Part shown: positions 14,248-29,905 of the stretch, in pieces
Numbering within the stretch: the stretch's first letter is position 1
Layout: each line of letters opens with the position of its first letter
Source: a virus
Direction: 5' to 3' (one strand)
IMG/VR virus record: IMGVR_UViG_3300014720_000120
Coordinates: 1 to 29,905 of that record
DNA length: 29,905 nt
The notes under the pieces: model-generated
Databases searched by the model: none
The model's input: only the letters and a program-made list of their open reading frames with translations
What the model was told of the DNA's origin: nothing
Made by a program: the position numbers and the translations under genes

Positions 14248-16044
14248 ATGGATAATATCGTTCACGGTATCAAGGTAGACTTTTCTCGTGATAATTTATT
14301 TGATGACCTTGGTGTCAAACGATTAAAAGAGTCCTATATGAGAGAAGATGAAAAATCACCACAAGAAAGGTTTGCGTATGTCTCAGCAGCATTTCGATCA
14401 AATCCAGAACACAGTCAGCGTCTTTATAATTATAGCTCTATGCACTGGCTTAGCTATAGCACACCAATACTCTCTTATGGACGTTCAAAGCGGGGTCTTC
14501 CTATTAGTTGCTTTCTACCTTATTTGGATGATAGTGCTGAAGGTCTGGTCGACACTTTATCGGAAGTCAATTGGCTCTCAATGCTTGGTGGAGGAGTAGG
14601 AATTGGTGTTGGTATTCGTTCAGCGGATGATAAAAGTGTTGGAGTCATGCCACATCTTCGCACATATGACGCATCATCTCTCGCTTATAGACAAGGTAGG
14701 ACTCGTCGTGGTTCTTATGCTGCATACCTTGATATTTCTCACCCTGATATTTTAATGTTTTTGGACATGCGTAAACCCACCGGTGATCCTAATATGCGAG
14801 CACTGAATTTACACCATGGAGTTAATATCTCTGATGATTTTATGCACATACTTGAAAAATGTATGCTTGATCCTGAGGCCGATGATACATGGGAACTGAA
14901 AGATCCACATGATGGTACAGTAAGAGAAACTATATCGGCTCGTGAACTATGGCAACGTGTATTAGAATTGAGGATGCAAACTGGAGAACCTTATCTCCAT
15001 TTTATTGACACAAGTAATAAAGCCCTACCAGACTTTCAAAAGAAACTTGGTTTGAAAATTCGTCAATCAAACCTATGCTCAGAGATTATTTTACCTACCG
15101 ACAAACAAAGAACGGCCGTATGTTGCCTTAGTTCAGTCAATCTGGAGTATTATGATGATTGGAAAAATGATAAGTATTTTCTTCGGGACGTTGCCGAGAT
15201 GCTTGATAATGTATTGCAGCACTTTATTGATAATGCTCCTGATTCTGTTTCACGGGCTAAATTCTCTGCTTCTAGTGAGCGTAGCATTGGTGTGGGCGCT
15301 CTCGGCTATCATGCTTACTTACAAAGGAATGGTATACCTTTTGAATCCGCCCTCGCAGTAAGTAAAAACAAACAAATTTTTAAACATATTCGTGAAGGAT
15401 TAGATCATGCAAATATCGAACTCGGAAAAGAAAGAGGCGAGGCTCCTGATGCTACAGGTACAGGTAAGCGTTTTAGCCACATGCTTGCTATTGCTCCTAA
15501 TGCTTCAAGTTCCATTATTATGGGCAATACTAGCCCCTCCATTGAGCCTTATCGTGCTAATGCTTATAGACAAGACACTCTTTCGGGTGCTTTTCTAAAC
15601 AAAAATAAATGGTTAGACAAAATTATCATGGAGAAATGCAATGCCGATTCTAACTTGGACTACAACGAAATCTGGTCAAGTATCATCGCCAATGATGGCA
15701 GCGTTCAACATCTTGAGTTCCTATCAGACTGGGAACGTGACGTATTTAAGACCTCTATGGAAATTGACCAAAGATGGGTCATACAGCATGCCGCTGATCG
15801 CCAGCCCTATATTGATCAAGCGCAAAGTCTCAATCTCTTTTTCAGACCAGACTCAAACATCAAATACATCCACGCAGTACACTTTATGGCGTGGAAACAA
15901 GGACTCAAAACGCTTTACTACTGCCGCTCAGAGAAGATTGGCAAAGCTGATAAAGTCTCTAAGCGAATTGAAAGACAAGTCATAGAAGAAATAGATTTAA
16001 AACAATTAGCAACCGAAGAGGTTTGCTTAGCTTGCGAGGGATAA
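14248..16044 (+). CDS. nrdA: Ribonucleotide reductase class Ia, alpha subunit (short form)
   Basis: The 598-residue protein has the catalytic pattern of class I alpha subunits: Cys88 in SCFL, NLCSEI with Asn275, Cys277 and Glu279, the second redox Cys in VCCLSSVNL (292/293), and PNASSSIIMGNTSPSIEP. The C-terminal tail ends in CLACEG (Cys593/596), the shuttle pair reduced by thioredoxin. The protein is shorter than bacterial NrdA (about 760), and the N-terminal ATP-cone is missing, so dATP feedback is probably lost, as in T4-like cyanophages. RBS ACGGAG precedes it. It reduces ribonucleotides for phage DNA synthesis together with NrdB at 17437. Confidence 0.93.
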   Translation: MDNIVHGIKVDFSRDNLFDDLGVKRLKESYMREDEKSPQERFAYVSAAFRSNPEHSQRLYNYSSMHWLSYSTPILSYGRSKRGLPISCFLPYLDDSAEGLVDTLSEVNWLSMLGGGVGIGVGIRSADDKSVGVMPHLRTYDASSLAYRQGRTRRGSYAAYLDISHPDILMFLDMRKPTGDPNMRALNLHHGVNISDDFMHILEKCMLDPEADDTWELKDPHDGTVRETISARELWQRVLELRMQTGEPYLHFIDTSNKALPDFQKKLGLKIRQSNLCSEIILPTDKQRTAVCCLSSVNLEYYDDWKNDKYFLRDVAEMLDNVLQHFIDNAPDSVSRAKFSASSERSIGVGALGYHAYLQRNGIPFESALAVSKNKQIFKHIREGLDHANIELGKERGEAPDATGTGKRFSHMLAIAPNASSSIIMGNTSPSIEPYRANAYRQDTLSGAFLNKNKWLDKIIMEKCNADSNLDYNEIWSSIIANDGSVQHLEFLSDWERDVFKTSMEIDQRWVIQHAADRQPYIDQAQSLNLFFRPDSNIKYIHAVHFMAWKQGLKTLYYCRSEKIGKADKVSKRIERQVIEEIDLKQLATEEVCLACEG

Positions 16045-16060
16045 CAAAATGGAAGAAATT

Positions 16061-16231
16061 ATGGCCTTTAATTTCTTTTCATTACATTTAGATAATATTA
16101 ATTTATTATCTATAATGATTGGTATGTTATTAGGGTCTACCATGTTCCGCCATCGGGCTGCATTTTGGGTTGCAGTTTATTTTATTATCATTTTTGTTTA
16201 TTACTTTATCAGATACACATATAAAATTTAA
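16061..16231 (+). CDS. Small two-TM membrane protein, unknown
   Basis: The likely start is the ATG at 16061, which follows GGAAG at six bases; an upstream ATG at 16049 would add MEEI but has no ribosome site. The 14 bases around this start (TGGAAGAAATTATG) are identical to those at the thyX start. The 56-residue product has two hydrophobic segments (LLSIMIGMLLGSTMF and FWVAVYFIIIFVYYFI) separated by RHRA. It sits inside the nrd cluster, but no link to nucleotide metabolism is evident. Confidence 0.6.
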   Translation: MAFNFFSLHLDNINLLSIMIGMLLGSTMFRHRAAFWVAVYFIIIFVYYFIRYTYKI

Positions 16232-16241
16232 CGGAGAATAG

Positions 16242-16484
16242 ATGAAAATACTTAAGTTTCAAGCCGATTGGTGTGAACCTTGTAAGGCTCTCACCAAACT
16301 CATGGAAGAAATTGATACTAAAATTGAAGTAGAAGTTATTGATATTGACAAAGAGCCACTAACATCAGCGAAGTATGGTATTCGTGGTGTTCCTACATTA
16401 GTGAAAATAGATGAGAATGGTATTGTGGATAGGCTAACTGGTTACAAAAATAAAAAACAAATAGAGGATTTCATTAATGGTTAA
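16242..16484 (+). CDS. Thioredoxin-like protein (WCEPCK)
   Basis: This 80-residue protein is a short thioredoxin or glutaredoxin fold with the active site W10-C11-E-P-C14-K and the conserved cis-proline region GIRGVPTLV. The likely role is to reduce the C-terminal Cys pair of the phage NrdA. A CGGAGAATAG ribosome site precedes the ATG. The 3' end of this gene also contains the left copy of a 13-base repeat derived from the nrdB start. Confidence 0.88.
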   Translation: MKILKFQADWCEPCKALTKLMEEIDTKIEVEVIDIDKEPLTSAKYGIRGVPTLVKIDENGIVDRLTGYKNKKQIEDFING

Positions 16485-16488
16485 AAAG
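16476..16488 (+). repeat. Left copy of 13-base direct repeat (nrdB start remnant)
   Basis: AATGGTTAAAAAG here is identical to 17436-17448, where it spans the nrdB start. In this copy it reads ATG GTT AAA AAG GAT TGA, a five-codon remnant MVKKD that matches the nrdB N-terminus MVKKQ. An AGAGGA ribosome site eight bases upstream is retained. Confidence 0.8.
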
Positions 16489-16496
16489 GATTGAAA

Positions 16497-17420
16497 GTGG
16501 AAACAACTTTGTTAATTGACGGTGGGCTTGGAAGATTTATTTCAGCAATACCAGCGTTAGAAAAATTTGTAAAAAAAAATCCAGACACGATAATTATCAC
16601 CTATTATTGGACTCAAATATACTGGGGTAATAAAATTTTAAGACCGTCTGTTATAGATTCTTCAACAAAAGGAATATTTAAAATAATAAAAGACACCAAG
16701 ATTATTAAACCAGAACCTTATTACAATACAAATTATCTTAATAATAGAATTTCAATAGTGGAAGCTTTTAATGAGGAAATAAATGGTGATAATGAAAAAA
16801 TGTCTTTGCCAAAAATTTATCTATCAGCCGAAGAGTTAAAAAGTGGAAAAAATATAGCAAAACAAAACAATAAAAAACTCGTTGTTTTCCAACCTTTTGG
16901 CCAAAATGCGGTGTTTACAAATGATGATGTAATTGACAATAGTATTCGTTCTTTGAGTAAAAAGATGACTTTGGATATTATTCAAATGTTAAAAAATCAA
17001 AATTTCGACATAGCGTTTTTCGATAATAGAGAAGTGCCTTTTTTAAATAAAAATCTTTTTTTGCCGATACAAAATGTTGATTGTAGAGTTTGGTCTTCTA
17101 TTATTGCTAATTGTGATTATTTTATTGGGTGTGACAGTGCTGGCCAACACATAGCTAGAGCCTTTAATATTCCAGGAACTGTTATTTTAGGAGGAACTAG
17201 TGAAATTAATACAAGTTATCCTGATCATTTTAATATTGTAAGAAGAAATGAAGATTATTCATATGCAAGTTACCGTTTAGCAGATTTTGATAATTATCTC
17301 TCTTGCTTGGAAAATAGTGATTTGATGAACTTTACAGATGAAGAAATTTTATTATTGAAAGAAAATATTTTAAAAAATTTAAATATAACACTAAAGAATT
17401 ATAGCACAATTAAAATTTAA
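16497..17420 (+). CDS. GT9-like (heptosyltransferase-family) glycosyltransferase
   Basis: The start is taken as GTG 16497, six bases after AAGGA; TTG 16491 would add two residues but touches the ribosome site. The 307-residue product shows an N-terminal LLIDGGLGRFISAIPALEKF, a mid VVFQPFGQ and a C-terminal CDYFIGCDSAGQHIARAFNI with VILGGTS. The last block is the GT9 signature (D-x-x-x-G-x-D-S-G/A-x-x-H-x-A) for sugar-nucleotide binding. The gene is much richer in A/T than its neighbours (14 G/C in 16561-16620 against 21 in 17641-17700 of nrdB) and breaks the trx-nrdB junction. It may modify host LPS or the virion, an exclusion or decoration role that I infer. Confidence 0.7.
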   Translation: METTLLIDGGLGRFISAIPALEKFVKKNPDTIIITYYWTQIYWGNKILRPSVIDSSTKGIFKIIKDTKIIKPEPYYNTNYLNNRISIVEAFNEEINGDNEKMSLPKIYLSAEELKSGKNIAKQNNKKLVVFQPFGQNAVFTNDDVIDNSIRSLSKKMTLDIIQMLKNQNFDIAFFDNREVPFLNKNLFLPIQNVDCRVWSSIIANCDYFIGCDSAGQHIARAFNIPGTVILGGTSEINTSYPDHFNIVRRNEDYSYASYRLADFDNYLSCLENSDLMNFTDEEILLLKENILKNLNITLKNYSTIKI

Positions 17421-17435
17421 AGGTAATTTAAAGAA

Positions 17436-17448
17436 AATGGTTAAAAAG
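17436..17448 (+). repeat. Right copy of 13-base direct repeat at the nrdB start
   Basis: AATGGTTAAAAAG includes the working nrdB start codon. The only nearby ribosome site (AAAGG, 17419-17423) is 13 bases from the ATG, so it is poorer than the AGAGGA that precedes the left copy. Confidence 0.8.
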
Positions 17449-18429
17449 CAACATACAAATCTTACACAAGAACGACAGTATTATAAACCATTCAACTATC
17501 CATGGGCCTATGATGCTTGGTTAAAACACGAACAGAGTCATTGGCTTCATACGGAAGTACCAATGCTTGAAGATGTGAAAGATTGGAAAAATAAACTATC
17601 AGACCATGAGAAGAAATTCCTCACCAATATCTTTCGTTTCTTTACGCAAGGTGATATTGATGTGGCTGGCGGTTATGTTAAAAACTATTTGCCATATTTT
17701 CCACAACCCGAAATTCGTATGATGCTATGTGGTTTTGCAGCAAGAGAGGCCTTACACATTGCTGCCTATTCTCATCTCATTGAATCTCTTGGAATGCCAG
17801 AAACTACATACAATGAGTTTCTACAATATTCCGAGATGAAAGAGAAGCATGATTACCTTTTGGATCTCAGCTCGAAAAACGGCACTAAAGAATCTACCGC
17901 CACACACATTGCTGCGTTCTCAGCGTTTACGGAAGGCATGCAGCTCTTTAGTTCTTTTATTATGCTTCTTAATTTTCCTCGTCACGGCCTAATGAAAGGC
18001 ATGGGTCAAATTGTAACTTGGTCAATTGTAGATGAAACTCAACATGCTGAAGCCATGATTAAATTGTTTCGTACCTACATAGAAGAAAATAAAGAAATCT
18101 GGAATGACGATCTTAAATCTAAAATTTATACCATTGCAACAAAGATGGTTGATTTGGAAGATAAGTTTATTGACCTGGCATTTGGTGTGGTACCTTTGGC
18201 TAATTTGGACGCTAGTGACGTTAAACAGTATATCCGCTATATTGCTGACCGTCGCCTTATTAGCCTGGGTCTTAAAGGAATCATGAAAGTCAAGAAGAAT
18301 CCTCTGCCGTGGGTTGAAGAAATGATTAATGCGCCAACACATACCAATTTCTTTGAGAATCGTGCTACAGATTATGCCAAAGGTGCTCTGAGTGGTAATT
18401 GGGATGAGGTGTGGGCCAAGGCTGCATAA
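17437..18429 (+). CDS. nrdB: Ribonucleotide reductase class Ia, beta subunit
   Basis: The 330-residue protein has the full diiron-tyrosyl set: Asp73, Glu104, His107 (REALHIAAY), Tyr111, Glu166 (FTEGMQLF), Glu200 and His203 (DETQHAEAM). Spacings of 31 residues (73-104), 7 (104-111) and 34 (166-200) match E. coli NrdB; the 104-166 interval is shorter, as in phage forms. It makes the radical used by NrdA. The gene was probably coupled to the thioredoxin gene before the glycosyltransferase insertion (see the repeat). The stop overlaps the next start (TAATG). Confidence 0.93.
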   Translation: MVKKQHTNLTQERQYYKPFNYPWAYDAWLKHEQSHWLHTEVPMLEDVKDWKNKLSDHEKKFLTNIFRFFTQGDIDVAGGYVKNYLPYFPQPEIRMMLCGFAAREALHIAAYSHLIESLGMPETTYNEFLQYSEMKEKHDYLLDLSSKNGTKESTATHIAAFSAFTEGMQLFSSFIMLLNFPRHGLMKGMGQIVTWSIVDETQHAEAMIKLFRTYIEENKEIWNDDLKSKIYTIATKMVDLEDKFIDLAFGVVPLANLDASDVKQYIRYIADRRLISLGLKGIMKVKKNPLPWVEEMINAPTHTNFFENRATDYAKGALSGNWDEVWAKAA

Positions 18430-18578
18430 TGCCTACACTTAAACACACTTGCGATAACTGTGATTCGGTGTTTTCAATACGTTATGAGGAAGAGTTTTGC
18501 GAAGATTCACCACACTATTGTCCATTTTGCGGAGACTATATAATCCAAGATGATTATATAGATGAAGAAGATGACTAA
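18429..18578 (+). CDS. 49-residue zinc-ribbon protein
   Basis: The ORF starts at the last A of the nrdB stop and ends at the A that begins the next gene, so all three are coupled. It codes for MPTLKHTCDNCDSVFSI, then YCPFCGDYI and an acidic tail. Two CxxC pairs (CDNC and CPFC) form a zinc ribbon. Such miniature zinc proteins are common in T4-like phages; some bind RNA polymerase or RNA, but this one has no known role. Confidence 0.75.
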   Translation: MPTLKHTCDNCDSVFSIRYEEEFCEDSPHYCPFCGDYIIQDDYIDEEDD

Positions 18579-18985
18579 TGTGGACATACAAAGGCCAGGA
18601 ATTTTGCGAAGAACATATCGGCTCTACTTACGGTTATGTTTATTGTATTACCAATCTACAAGATGGCAAACAGTACATTGGTAAGAAGTTTTTCAGTAAG
18701 GCTGGTTATAAGACCGTAAAAGGTAAACGCAAGAAAATCCGAAAACCCTCAGACTGGTTAACCTACTGGGGGTCTAACAAAACTCTCCTTGAAGATATGC
18801 AAAGGCTCGGTGAACAACATTTTCGCCGAGAGATTTTGCATTTATGTACTACCAGATCCGATTGTGCCTATTTGGAACTAAGAGAACAAATAGACCGGCG
18901 TGTATTAGAATCTGATAGGTATTATAACGATTGGATCATGGTAAAAGTTCGTAAAGATCATATAAAATTTCATAAGGTGAAATAA
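18578..18985 (+). CDS. GIY-YIG nuclease-domain protein
   Basis: This 135-residue protein contains YGYVYCITN at 18-26 and QYIGKKFF at 32-39, the two strands of a GIY-YIG nuclease core. SDWLTYWGSNKTLLEDM and FRREILHLC with YLELREQI follow, holding the expected Arg and Glu. The family is widespread in T4-like phages; some members are labelled Seg-like. It is not inserted in a conserved gene here, and it lacks a separate DNA-binding domain, so a free-standing homing role is uncertain. Repair or host-DNA degradation are alternatives. Confidence 0.75.
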   Translation: MWTYKGQEFCEEHIGSTYGYVYCITNLQDGKQYIGKKFFSKAGYKTVKGKRKKIRKPSDWLTYWGSNKTLLEDMQRLGEQHFRREILHLCTTRSDCAYLELREQIDRRVLESDRYYNDWIMVKVRKDHIKFHKVK

Positions 18986-18991
18986 TCTATG

Positions 18992-19021
18992 TTGCAATGC
19001 GTCATGAAAAGCATATATAAT
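18992..19021 (+). promoter_or_regulatory. Sigma70-type promoter
   Basis: TTGCAA (18992-18997), 18-base spacer, TATAAT (19016-19021). The predicted start near 19028 gives a leader of about 30 bases before the ATG at 19060, with AGGAG at a normal distance. It begins the accessory block downstream of the nuclease gene. Confidence 0.65.
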
Positions 19022-19026
19022 ACTAT

Positions 19027-21056: not shown

Positions 21057-21075
21057 ACCCTTTTTGCGAGGTCGT

Positions 21076-22083
21076 ATGAAAAAACTTTTAACAATTCTAT
21101 TTTTCTCTTTATTTTCTCTTGGTGCCAATGCAGCCGACATTACAGGTGCAGGTGCCACATTTCCTTATCCAATCTATGCCAAATGGGCTGAATCATACCA
21201 CAAGGCCACTGGTGTTGGATTAAACTATCAATCAATCGGTAGTTCTGGTGGCATAAGACAAATCAATTCAAAAACCGTAACATTTGGTGCGACCGATGCA
21301 CCAGTGAAAGGTGAGGACCTAGATAAAAATGGTCAAATCCAATTTCCTGCTATCATTGGTGGTACTGTACCTGTGGTTAACCTGGATGGATTCAAGCCCG
21401 GTGAATTGCGAATTACTGGACCTGTTTTAGCTGATATTTACATGGGCAATATAACAAAGTGGAATGATGAAAAACTTAGCAAACTTAATCCTGGAAAGAA
21501 GTTACCTGATACTCAAATTACTGTTGTTCATAGGGCTGATGGTTCTGGCACTACTTTTAATTTTACCGATTATCTTAGTGAAGTTAGCAGTGAGTGGAAG
21601 ACTAGAGTAGGTAAAGGTGCCGCAGTAAAATGGATACCACAAACAGCAGTGGGCGGTAAAGGTAACGAAGGTGTTGCAGCGAATGTTGGTCGTGTAAAAG
21701 GTGCCATTGGTTATGTAGAATATGCCTATGTGAAAAAGAACAATATGAATTTTTTACAGTTACAAAACAAATCAGGTAACTTTGTAAGCCCCGATGATAC
21801 AACATTTGCTGCAGCTGCGGCAGGTGCAGACTGGTTCTCGGTACCAGGTATGGGACTGAGTATTGTAAATCAGGGTGGCAAAGATACCTGGCCTATTTCA
21901 ACGGCAAGTTTTATTGTCATGTATAAAGACCCTGCTGATAAAAAGGCCTCGGCTGAAGTAATTAAGTTTTTTGATTGGTCATTTAGAAACGGTAAGAAGA
22001 TGAGCGAAGATTTAGATTACGTTCACCTTCCTGAAACGTTACAAAATGCCATACGAACTAAAGTATGGTCACAAATTAAATGA
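21076..22083 (+). CDS. pstS: Phosphate ABC transporter substrate-binding protein PstS
   Basis: The start is ATG 21076 after GCGAGG; an upstream TTG (21064) is less likely. The 335-residue product has a signal peptide MKKLLTILFFSLFSLGANA. The mature part has ITGAGATFPYPIYAKWAESY, GSSGGIRQI, FGATDAPV and HRADGSGTTFNFTDYL, the known phosphate-binding loops. It captures phosphate in the periplasm for the host PstCAB permease. It is a typical auxiliary metabolic gene of marine and freshwater T4-like phages, where the host PhoBR system can induce it. Confidence 0.93.
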   Translation: MKKLLTILFFSLFSLGANAADITGAGATFPYPIYAKWAESYHKATGVGLNYQSIGSSGGIRQINSKTVTFGATDAPVKGEDLDKNGQIQFPAIIGGTVPVVNLDGFKPGELRITGPVLADIYMGNITKWNDEKLSKLNPGKKLPDTQITVVHRADGSGTTFNFTDYLSEVSSEWKTRVGKGAAVKWIPQTAVGGKGNEGVAANVGRVKGAIGYVEYAYVKKNNMNFLQLQNKSGNFVSPDDTTFAAAAAGADWFSVPGMGLSIVNQGGKDTWPISTASFIVMYKDPADKKASAEVIKFFDWSFRNGKKMSEDLDYVHLPETLQNAIRTKVWSQIK

Positions 22084-28668: not shown

Positions 28669-28866
28669 ATGGATAAACTTCATTTTTTAATTCGTGCTGA
28701 AAAGTATGCAGAAGCTCGAGGTGATGAAAATTATTTTAAGCATTGGTATACTCGGTATCGTGAATGGTATAATGTCGAGGATAGTGTTTGGTGTGCTTTG
28801 GCTTGGTTGTATGATGAAGATACGGCTAATTTGTTAAAATACCAATATTGGGGACCTGCATTATGA
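28669..28866 (+). CDS. Small phage protein, unknown (65 residues)
   Basis: It starts at the ATG directly after the GP88 stop. The product MDKLHFLIRAEKYAEARGDE, then KHWYTRYREWYNVEDSVW and CALAWLYDEDTANLL is helical and aromatic-rich. No family is recognised. Its TGA overlaps the next ATG. Confidence 0.65.
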   Translation: MDKLHFLIRAEKYAEARGDENYFKHWYTRYREWYNVEDSVWCALAWLYDEDTANLLKYQYWGPAL

Positions 28867-29102
28867 ACAAACGAATACAAAAGTGGTTGAAAAATCATTT
28901 AGTTAGGGATGAATATACTGAATTTGGTTGGCAAGAATGTCACCGTTATGAATTTGATGAAAATGAAATAAAAGAATTCACTGAGTTGATTGTGCGTGAA
29001 TGTATGGAACAGTTGAATATTTCTAATGTACCTGCTCCAATCTCCTTAGGACTAAATCTTGGTAGAGTAGCGATTAAAGAACATTTCGGAGTTGAAGAAT
29101 GA
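28863..29102 (+). CDS. HFGVEE-family short protein, copy 1
   Basis: ATG 28863 overlaps the previous stop (ATGA); the upstream ATG at 28848 is rejected. The 79-residue product ends IKEHFGVEE and contains FTELIVRECMEQ. This is the first of three relatives in tandem (29099, 29508) with the shared frame F-x-E-L-I-V-R-E-C...HFGVEE. Such repeated small genes are known in T4-like phages; function unknown. Confidence 0.75.
   Translation: MNKRIQKWLKNHLVRDEYTEFGWQECHRYEFDENEIKEFTELIVRECMEQLNISNVPAPISLGLNLGRVAIKEHFGVEE
29077..29102 (+). repeat. 26-base direct repeat, copy 1 (HFGVEE end)
   Basis: The bases for EHFGVEE plus stop are identical at 29077-29102 and 29325-29350. The stop overlaps the next gene's ATG in both copies, so each unit is a self-contained gene plus junction. 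Confidence 0.85.
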
Positions 29103-29350
29103 ACGAACGAATCAAACAACTATTAGGGCAAGCCTATGATGAGGCAGTGCCCGAAACTTGGACTACGCTATCTTCTGAACAACTGGGAAGAATATATGAT
29201 AAGTTCGCCGAGTTGATTGTTAGGGAATGTATGCTCCAATGTATCAAAGTGGAGAATGATGTTGAATTGAGCGATTATGAAGGTGGATTCAAAGATGGTG
29301 CGCTGTTGTGTTATCAGGAGATTCAAGAACATTTCGGAGTTGAAGAATGA
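29099..29350 (+). CDS. HFGVEE-family short protein, copy 2
   Basis: This 83-residue protein starts MNERIKQLLGQAYDEAVPET, holds KFAELIVRECMLQC and ends QEHFGVEE. The ATG overlaps the stop of copy 1. The 32 bases for KFAELIVREC (29201-29232) are identical to copy 3. Function unknown. Confidence 0.75.
   Translation: MNERIKQLLGQAYDEAVPETWTTLSSEQLGRIYDKFAELIVRECMLQCIKVENDVELSDYEGGFKDGALLCYQEIQEHFGVEE
29201..29232 (+). repeat. 32-base direct repeat (KFAELIVREC), copy 1
   Basis: Identical to 29595-29626 in copy 3 of the family. With the 26-base end repeats it offers homology for gain or loss of whole units. Confidence 0.85.
29325..29350 (+). repeat. 26-base direct repeat, copy 2 (HFGVEE end)
   Basis: Second copy of the sequence at 29077-29102. 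A similar but not identical end occurs at 29692-29714 (CATTTTGGAG in place of CATTTCGGAG). Confidence 0.85.
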
Positions 29351-29511
29351 GTAAATTCAGTGAATTACTTGAAGAATATCTAGACGAGCGTGATCGCCAA
29401 AATAGCGATTACTACGATGACCGATATATTGGTTCCAGAATTCAAGGCAGAGAATTGATGCAGGAACTAGCGAAAGCAATGGATAAATTGATTCATGGAG
29501 TTAAAGATTGA
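29347..29511 (+). CDS. 54-residue phage protein between family copies
   Basis: ATG 29347 overlaps the stop of copy 2. The product MSKFSELLEEYLDERDRQNS, then YYDDRYIGSRIQGRELMQEL, ends IHGVKD, a faint echo of HFGVEE. It may be a diverged member of the family or an unrelated gene carried in the array. Confidence 0.65.
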   Translation: MSKFSELLEEYLDERDRQNSDYYDDRYIGSRIQGRELMQELAKAMDKLIHGVKD

Positions 29512-29714
29512 ACGAACGAATCCGAGAACTTGCTGAACAGGCCGGGATGTACATTGTTGATGATGAATTTTCAACTTATGGAAAGTTCGCCGAAAAGTTC
29601 GCCGAGTTGATTGTTAGGGAATGTATTGAATGGTGTAATGCTCACGCTACGATTAATGGAACGGCACAGCAAGTTCGTGATTCGATTAAACAACATTTTG
29701 GAGTTGAAGAATGA
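29508..29714 (+). CDS. HFGVEE-family short protein, copy 3, TTG start
   Basis: The 68-residue product begins with TTG (TTGAACGAACGAATC), where copy 2 has ATGAACGAACGAATC, so the start is supported by the relative. The TTGA overlaps the previous TGA stop. A 12-base tandem duplication (29582-29593 and 29594-29605) gives KFAEKFAEL. It ends KQHFGVEE. A weak start suggests lower expression than copies 1 and 2. Confidence 0.72.
   Translation: MNERIRELAEQAGMYIVDDEFSTYGKFAEKFAELIVRECIEWCNAHATINGTAQQVRDSIKQHFGVEE
29595..29626 (+). repeat. 32-base direct repeat (KFAELIVREC), copy 2
   Basis: Second copy of 29201-29232. Its first 11 bases overlap the right half of a 12-base tandem duplication in the same gene. 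Confidence 0.85.
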
Positions 29715-29905
29715 CTAAAGAATTGGATTTAATTTTATTGAGAGGTCCGAGAACGGACGATGCTGGGAATAAAATTCCAGTACGGGTTCAAGTGGTTCGT
29801 AGATCAGAAACAGACCTGTCGAACTATTCATTTCTCTGTAAGCAAGAGAAGATGGAAGAATGGGTACCAACCAAAGAACTTGAATTGTATAAGATGTTAT
29901 TAAAA
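29711..29905 (+). CDS. Phage protein, unknown, 3' partial
   Basis: ATG 29711 overlaps the stop of copy 3 and the frame runs off the window (65 codons visible). The product MTKELDLILLRGPRTDDAGN, then PVRVQVVRRSETDLSNYSFL and EKMEEWVPTKELELY, is mixed alpha/beta. I do not recognise a family from this part. Confidence 0.6.
   Translation, partial: MTKELDLILLRGPRTDDAGNKIPVRVQVVRRSETDLSNYSFLCKQEKMEEWVPTKELELYKMLLK

Follow-up and report, generated by a model that had tools for sequence, protein, structure and literature searches.

The DNA analysed here, which we refer to as the window, covers positions 1 to 29,905 of the virus record IMGVR_UViG_3300014720_000120 and is given as one strand. In its ribonucleotide reductase region, a gene for a predicted glycosyltransferase (GT) stands between trx and nrdB. 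The features of this locus, some of them defined relative to L002, a single viral contig of 5,721 bp, are as follows.

14248 to 16044, plus strand: nrdA (598 aa), with the Pfam ribonucleotide reductase barrel domain.
16049 to 16231, plus strand: a 60-aa ORF between nrdA and trx, with no counterpart in L002.
16242 to 16484, plus strand: trx (thioredoxin, 80 aa; Pfam Thioredoxin, E 2.9e-14); the L002 protein is 95% identical.
16464 to 16469, plus strand: AGAGGA, the former ribosome site of nrdB, now ahead of a relict ATG (-5.8 kcal/mol); the same sequence is used by L002 nrdB.
16476 to 16488, plus strand: left copy of the doubled overlap, a relict nrdB start within the trx tail (13-mer match).
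16477 to 16494, plus strand: the relict frame, five codons read from the sequence as MVKKD-stop, ending 2 nt 5' of the GT start.
16489 to 17435, plus strand: the inserted stretch relative to L002, 947 bases between the two 13-base copies.
16497 to 17420, plus strand: predicted GT9-fold glycosyltransferase gene (AlphaFold2/Foldseek), GTG start, 307 aa, phrog_8954 (E 8.2e-58); missing from L002.
17436 to 17448, plus strand: right copy of the doubled overlap, the working nrdB start (13-mer match).
17437 to 18429, plus strand: nrdB (330 aa; Pfam Ribonuc_red_sm, E 4e-75).
18578 to 18985, plus strand: a SegE-type GIY-YIG endonuclease gene beside nrdB (PF19835, E 4.9e-36), a candidate source of breaks.

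The GT gene is flanked by two copies of the 13-mer AATGGTTAAAAAG. An earlier note on this DNA had reported these copies, and its observation of a doubled 13-mer is confirmed; both are present and there is no other exact match in the window. As that note had described, the left copy lies over the trx stop (AAT GGT TAA, 16476-16484, with the stop at 16482-16484) and reads ATG GTT AAA AAG GAT TGA, a relict nrdB start, while the right copy holds the working start (MVKKQ, ATG 17437). The stronger ribosome site that the note had assigned to the left copy was recovered as an anti-SD pairing of -5.8 kcal/mol for the relict ATG versus -3.9 kcal/mol for the nrdB ATG. The insert had also been called A/T-rich, and at 27% GC the GT gene is indeed the lowest among the 41 ORF-based genes of the window (median 39%). 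By homology, the gene starts at GTG 16497, preceded by AAGGA at a distance of 6 nt, and not at TTG 16491. The GT gene alone fills the insert, which contains no transposase, integrase, or endonuclease gene, as had been claimed.

The statistics of the repeat alone are not decisive, since chance alone would give approximately 0.11 exact 13-mer repeats spaced within 1 kb for every 2.6 kb of like composition. The repeat is taken to be real because each copy lies at a gene junction and because L002 presents the empty site, which rules out a chance repeat. The NrdA, Trx, and NrdB proteins of L002 are 90-95% identical to those of the window (95% for both Trx and NrdB). The earlier note had suggested looking for a relative without a gene between trx and nrdB; in L002 the trx stop overlaps the nrdB ATG, trx continues into nrdB as TTCATTAATGGTTAAAAAGCAACC, and the GT gene is missing. 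For the note, absence of the 13-mer from closely related insert-free phages would have refuted its model; L002 was found to hold it once. Window positions 16238-16488 align with L002 3893-4143 at 92.0% identity, and positions 17436-19026 align with L002 4131-5721 at 91.3%. These alignments overlap by 13 bases on L002 and are separated by 947 in the window, and the single L002 13-mer matches both window copies. The comparison thereby supports the reading that a gene probably entered a former trx/nrdB overlap. The 60-aa ORF is missing from L002 as well, where the nrdA TAA abuts the trx ATG, so that the window carries two added genes relative to L002. No direct repeat surrounds the 60-aa ORF, which has no relative among the compared loci. 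Apart from L002, a search of viral contigs gave no high-identity relatives of the window trx, and annotated phage records held no close relative, the DNA matches being short pieces of about 64-71% identity. When the trx tail plus overlap was sought as a degenerate pattern, 60 stretches matched, L002 included.

An overlap between the two genes is the common arrangement in related phages. In 54 of the 67 distinct loci where trx precedes nrdB, the start of nrdB lies over the trx stop, and in 36 of those 54 the overlap is exactly 8 nt, mostly ATGRTTAA. The trx of locus L041 is 49% identical to that of the window, yet the same TTAATGGTTAAAAAG is found at its junction. Because of this distribution, the overlap is taken to be older than the GT gene; the nrdB start lies within the trx tail, so that an overlap came first in any case. 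Filled loci neighbour overlap-bearing ones in the nrdB tree (the window with L002, L084 with L085, L112 with L101, L098 with L095 and L105, and L151 with L127 and L118), with the reservation that not all of these forks are strongly supported and that the branches around the window, L002, and L088 are weakly supported. The empty site of L002 could itself have arisen later, by a clean deletion across the repeat, without altering the history of the overlap.

The same junction holds different genes in different phages. The trx/nrdB overlap is occupied by a GT9-type gene in three loci (the window, L083, and L084) and by a c15-cluster endonuclease (GIY-YIG-type) in two (L112 and L151); L098 has an aspartyl/asparaginyl hydroxylase-like gene there, L116 a DUF5672 gene, and L062 and L069 larger blocks. 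Across the relatives, the nrdA-nrdB interval as a whole contains more than 60 protein clusters. L084 differs from L085 by an 896-base GT insertion at the overlap, with flanks that are 97-98% identical and that drop to 80% over ∼30 nt on either side of the insertion. As judged from these sequence comparisons, the trx/nrdB overlap is a recurrent docking point for new genes in related phages. Two GT9-type paralogues are present in L084 (L084:808-1698 and L084:3399-4301), one in the trx/nrdB overlap and one after nrdB. In L098, the hydroxylase-like gene (L098:9392-9940) uses the relict nrdB ATG as its start and stops on the second overlap copy, with a repeat of 12 nt; it overlaps both neighbours because its frame runs from the left ATG to the right TAA. 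The trx ahead of it is a C-terminal remnant only. A tentative generalization, which we consider possible rather than probable, is that the ATGRTTAA-type overlap acts as a transposase-free docking sequence: genes would enter by recombination with doubling of the overlap, a newcomer may borrow the left start and the right stop, as in L098, coupling would be kept along the chain, the repeat would permit clean loss, and the GT9-type gene would often be the cargo.

The length of the repeat is informative about its origin. The exact repeat in register around the two ATGs varies across seven filled loci, from 13 bases in the window, 12 in L098, and 7 in L151 to 6 each in L083, L084, and L019 and 4 in L112. 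Eight of the 13 bases in the window (ATGGTTAA) are necessarily doubled because both overlapping genes must survive insertion. The remaining five comprise an A before the ATG (p about 0.4) and AAAG after the stop (p about 0.01). The AAAG leads into the AAGGA ribosome site of GTG 16497, and a TAAnAGGAT GT leader is common to the window, L082, and L083; the GT genes of L082 and L083 have upstream neighbours unlike that of the window, with TAAnAGGAT at the same place. The repeat is best read as a doubled overlap, perhaps with joining at short homology, and not as a target-site duplication. What the earlier note had called a direct duplication stands insofar as both copies match the single L002 copy, but the doubling is mostly forced by the gene overlap. 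Elsewhere in the window, the small ORFs in a run at 28848-29733 share junction sequences present in 3-5 copies (GGAGTTGAAGAATGA and others), perhaps through serial gene duplication along with the start/stop junction.

Putative homing endonucleases occur in this region in several relatives. L112 matches L101 at 100% identity for 2,150 bp upstream and at 99.8% for 4,729 bp downstream. What sets the two apart is the endonuclease gene and the initial ∼117 nt of nrdB, where identity is 47-90% per 30-nt bin. Such a co-conversion footprint has been described for the homing endonucleases of T-even phages (PMC2988022), and the replaced 5' end of L112 nrdB shows a footprint of the homing type at the trx/nrdB junction itself. 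An endonuclease gene is likewise present at the junction of L151 and missing from its kin L118, as it is from L101. Homologues of c15 are located at the nrdA end in L146 and L128. Only L146 passes the Pfam GIY-YIG cut-off; L112 and L151 fall below it and were assigned by homology to L146 and by a shared alignment with the YIG motif. A search with the L112 endonuclease itself matched its own contig only (also present as L228). In L082, which has the GT gene closest to that of the window, the order is GT, a degraded c15 homologue, nrdB. A group I intron was detected within nrdB of L151 (L151:8240-8469; RF00028, 60 bits, E 7.8e-15) in a focused search, while a search of whole loci at Rfam gathering thresholds gave no match; the intron and the adjoining junction endonuclease gene are a candidate for collaborative homing. 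A SegE-type gene is present 3' of nrdB in most relatives, and the SegE-type GIY-YIG gene downstream of nrdB is the sole one kept by the window. The protein that it encodes also matches phrog_447, whose 'NAD synthetase' annotation looks wrong given the Pfam SegE match. Among the ORFs scanned, a homing endonuclease was recognised on one side of the window insert only, the nrdB side, and comparison with L002 gave no identity dip of the co-conversion kind at the insert.

The earlier note had been unable to name a mechanism, which now has a candidate because GIY-YIG-type genes occupy the same junction in relatives. Our preferred reading, to which we assign a probability of roughly 0.72, is that a cassette was captured by recombination at the trx/nrdB overlap, probably driven by the repair of homing-endonuclease breaks from another phage. 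In the ancestor, trx and nrdB would have shared an overlap of 8 nt (ATGGTTAA), into which a single-gene cassette with the GT9-fold glycosyltransferase would then have recombined through joins at short stretches of homology near the overlapping start and stop. Both trx and nrdB would have survived because the overlap is present on both sides, the left copy ending trx and the right copy starting nrdB. The likely driver would be breaks made by a putative homing endonuclease in the nrd region and repaired from a different co-infecting phage, during which accessory genes such as the GT9-type gene may enter or hitch-hike from foreign templates. Breaks are taken to promote repair of this kind because of the co-conversion in L112 and the occupancy of the junction by endonucleases in relatives. 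The empty site and the recurrence, like the occupancy and co-conversion, are evident in the compared sequences; that a homing-endonuclease break caused the window's own insertion we infer.

Other histories would place the GT gene at this junction differently. The GT gene might be the older state in the clade and L002 might have lost it by recombination between the 13-base copies, restoring the overlap exactly. A deletion across the repeat would yield precisely the L002 sequence, the wider group often carries genes of the same GT family in its nrd operons, and branch support near L002 is weak. We nevertheless regard this history as unlikely, since the nrdB start in the trx tail means that the overlap predates the GT gene anyway, the overlap is kept throughout most of the trx and nrdB loci (54/67), and the L084/L085 and L112/L101 pairs display filled sites with donor-like flanks, as gain predicts. 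Somewhat less likely again is that the insertion took place earlier and elsewhere and that the window received a ready-made trx-GT-nrdB block from another phage through ordinary homologous recombination within nrdA and nrdB. Identity to L002 falls from ∼92% in trx and nrdB to 84% in nrdA, which leaves room for a crossover close to where nrdA meets trx, and the L084 flanks look donor-derived. However, identity to L002 is equal on both sides of the GT gene (trx 92.0%, nrdB 91.3%), which fits insertion into the same background.

A true 13-bp target-site duplication, made by a transposase or integrase acting in trans, would explain why the insert is bounded by exact direct repeats and why the empty site is clean, but we consider it very improbable. 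There is no enzyme, no terminal inverted repeats were found at the insert ends, eight of the bases are forced by the gene overlap, and the variable length of the repeat, which ranges from 4 to 13 nt among the seven loci filled at this junction, largely refutes it. Transposition with a fixed target duplication was rejected on the same grounds of variable repeat length and the lack of inverted ends and of an enzyme.

The product of the inserted gene was modelled with AlphaFold2 from 12 sequences (pLDDT 90.1, pTM 0.89). The top Foldseek matches of the model are GT9 proteins, led by 3tov (E 1.2e-10) and followed by TibC, WaaF, and WaaC; on the model, the product is predicted to be a GT-B fold, heptosyltransferase-like GT9-fold protein. 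It resembles the heptosyltransferases WaaC, WaaF, and TibC in its GT-B fold, for which they are the best structural matches, but shares 10-13% identity with them and belongs to a phage family, phrog_8954, that is annotated as of unknown function. The Pfam GT9 model PF01075 scores 15.7 bits, under the curated 22, and matches 8 of the 12 family members weakly (best E 6.7e-4). A search of prokaryote genome contigs gave no confirmed relative of the family, and its profile matched no solved structure by sequence. The earlier note had proposed to look for the GT9 gene with other flanks, and several nrd-operon arrangements were found: nrdA-GT-nrdB (L229, L240, L242), nrdA-c16-GT-nrdB (L239), nrdA-c16-GT-c2-trx-nrdB (L095), trx-GT-nrdB (the window, L083, L084), and nrdB followed by GT (L085, L086). 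Most of the fetched family members lie in or beside an nrd operon. Another accessory gene of the window, an auxiliary metabolic gene at 21064-22083, encodes a phosphate transporter subunit (phrog_5385).

In L002, nrdB begins within the end of trx and is served by the -5.8 kcal/mol site. Termination-reinitiation into the GT gene is plausible in the window because the 5-codon frame stops at TGA 16492-16494, 2 nt before GTG 16497. The relict start and strong ribosome site would thus now feed GT translation, with nrdB left on the weaker site. A moron would bring its own promoter and terminator. Promoter-like matches are common across the A/T-rich insert region; no terminator-like site was found between GT and nrdB, the two matches falling within ORFs.

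In lambdoid phages, short boundary sequences ('linkers') at gene ends are sites of module exchange. The junction described here is similar in that exchange points lie at gene boundaries with start/stop overlaps, but differs in that a gene is added and the boundary doubled, where lambdoid modules are swapped. The presence of mobE between nrdA and nrdB of T4 and the movement of core-gene islands by homing endonuclease genes (HEGs) are already known (PMC2988022, PMC3653736, PMC10448857). As in the intronless homing of T4 mobE and the free-standing homing endonucleases of T-even phages (PMC2988022), an intruder gene lies in the nrdA-nrdB interval, co-conversion is seen between L112 and L101, and a SegE-type GIY-YIG gene adjoins nrdB; unlike mobE, the window insert is a glycosyltransferase and not a nuclease, and its site is a trx/nrdB translational overlap that doubles. 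Core genes, nrd among them, are also exchanged between phages near homing endonucleases in HEG-islands (Barth, Dunham and Seed 2023, PMC10448857), whereas here single accessory genes enter inside an operon at one overlap. Doubled-overlap gene gain is a variant of homing-endonuclease-linked exchange and not a new kind of element. Our literature search on gene insertion at start/stop overlaps gave nothing on point, and among the papers searched we found none describing a translational overlap that gains single genes again and again, is doubled in the process, and takes in nucleases in some phages and accessory genes in others.

Phage genomes are full of overlapping genes, and the question is how whole genes are added without breaking their neighbours. 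At the trx/nrdB junction, a route of single-gene gain is directly testable because the states before and after are known, several times at one junction and with differing cargo. In a phage genome, short direct repeats on either side of a gene may be the cost of splitting an overlap and not the footprint of transposition. The homing endonucleases at the same junction also tie the gain of accessory genes, glycosyltransferases among them, to the way in which selfish nucleases spread.
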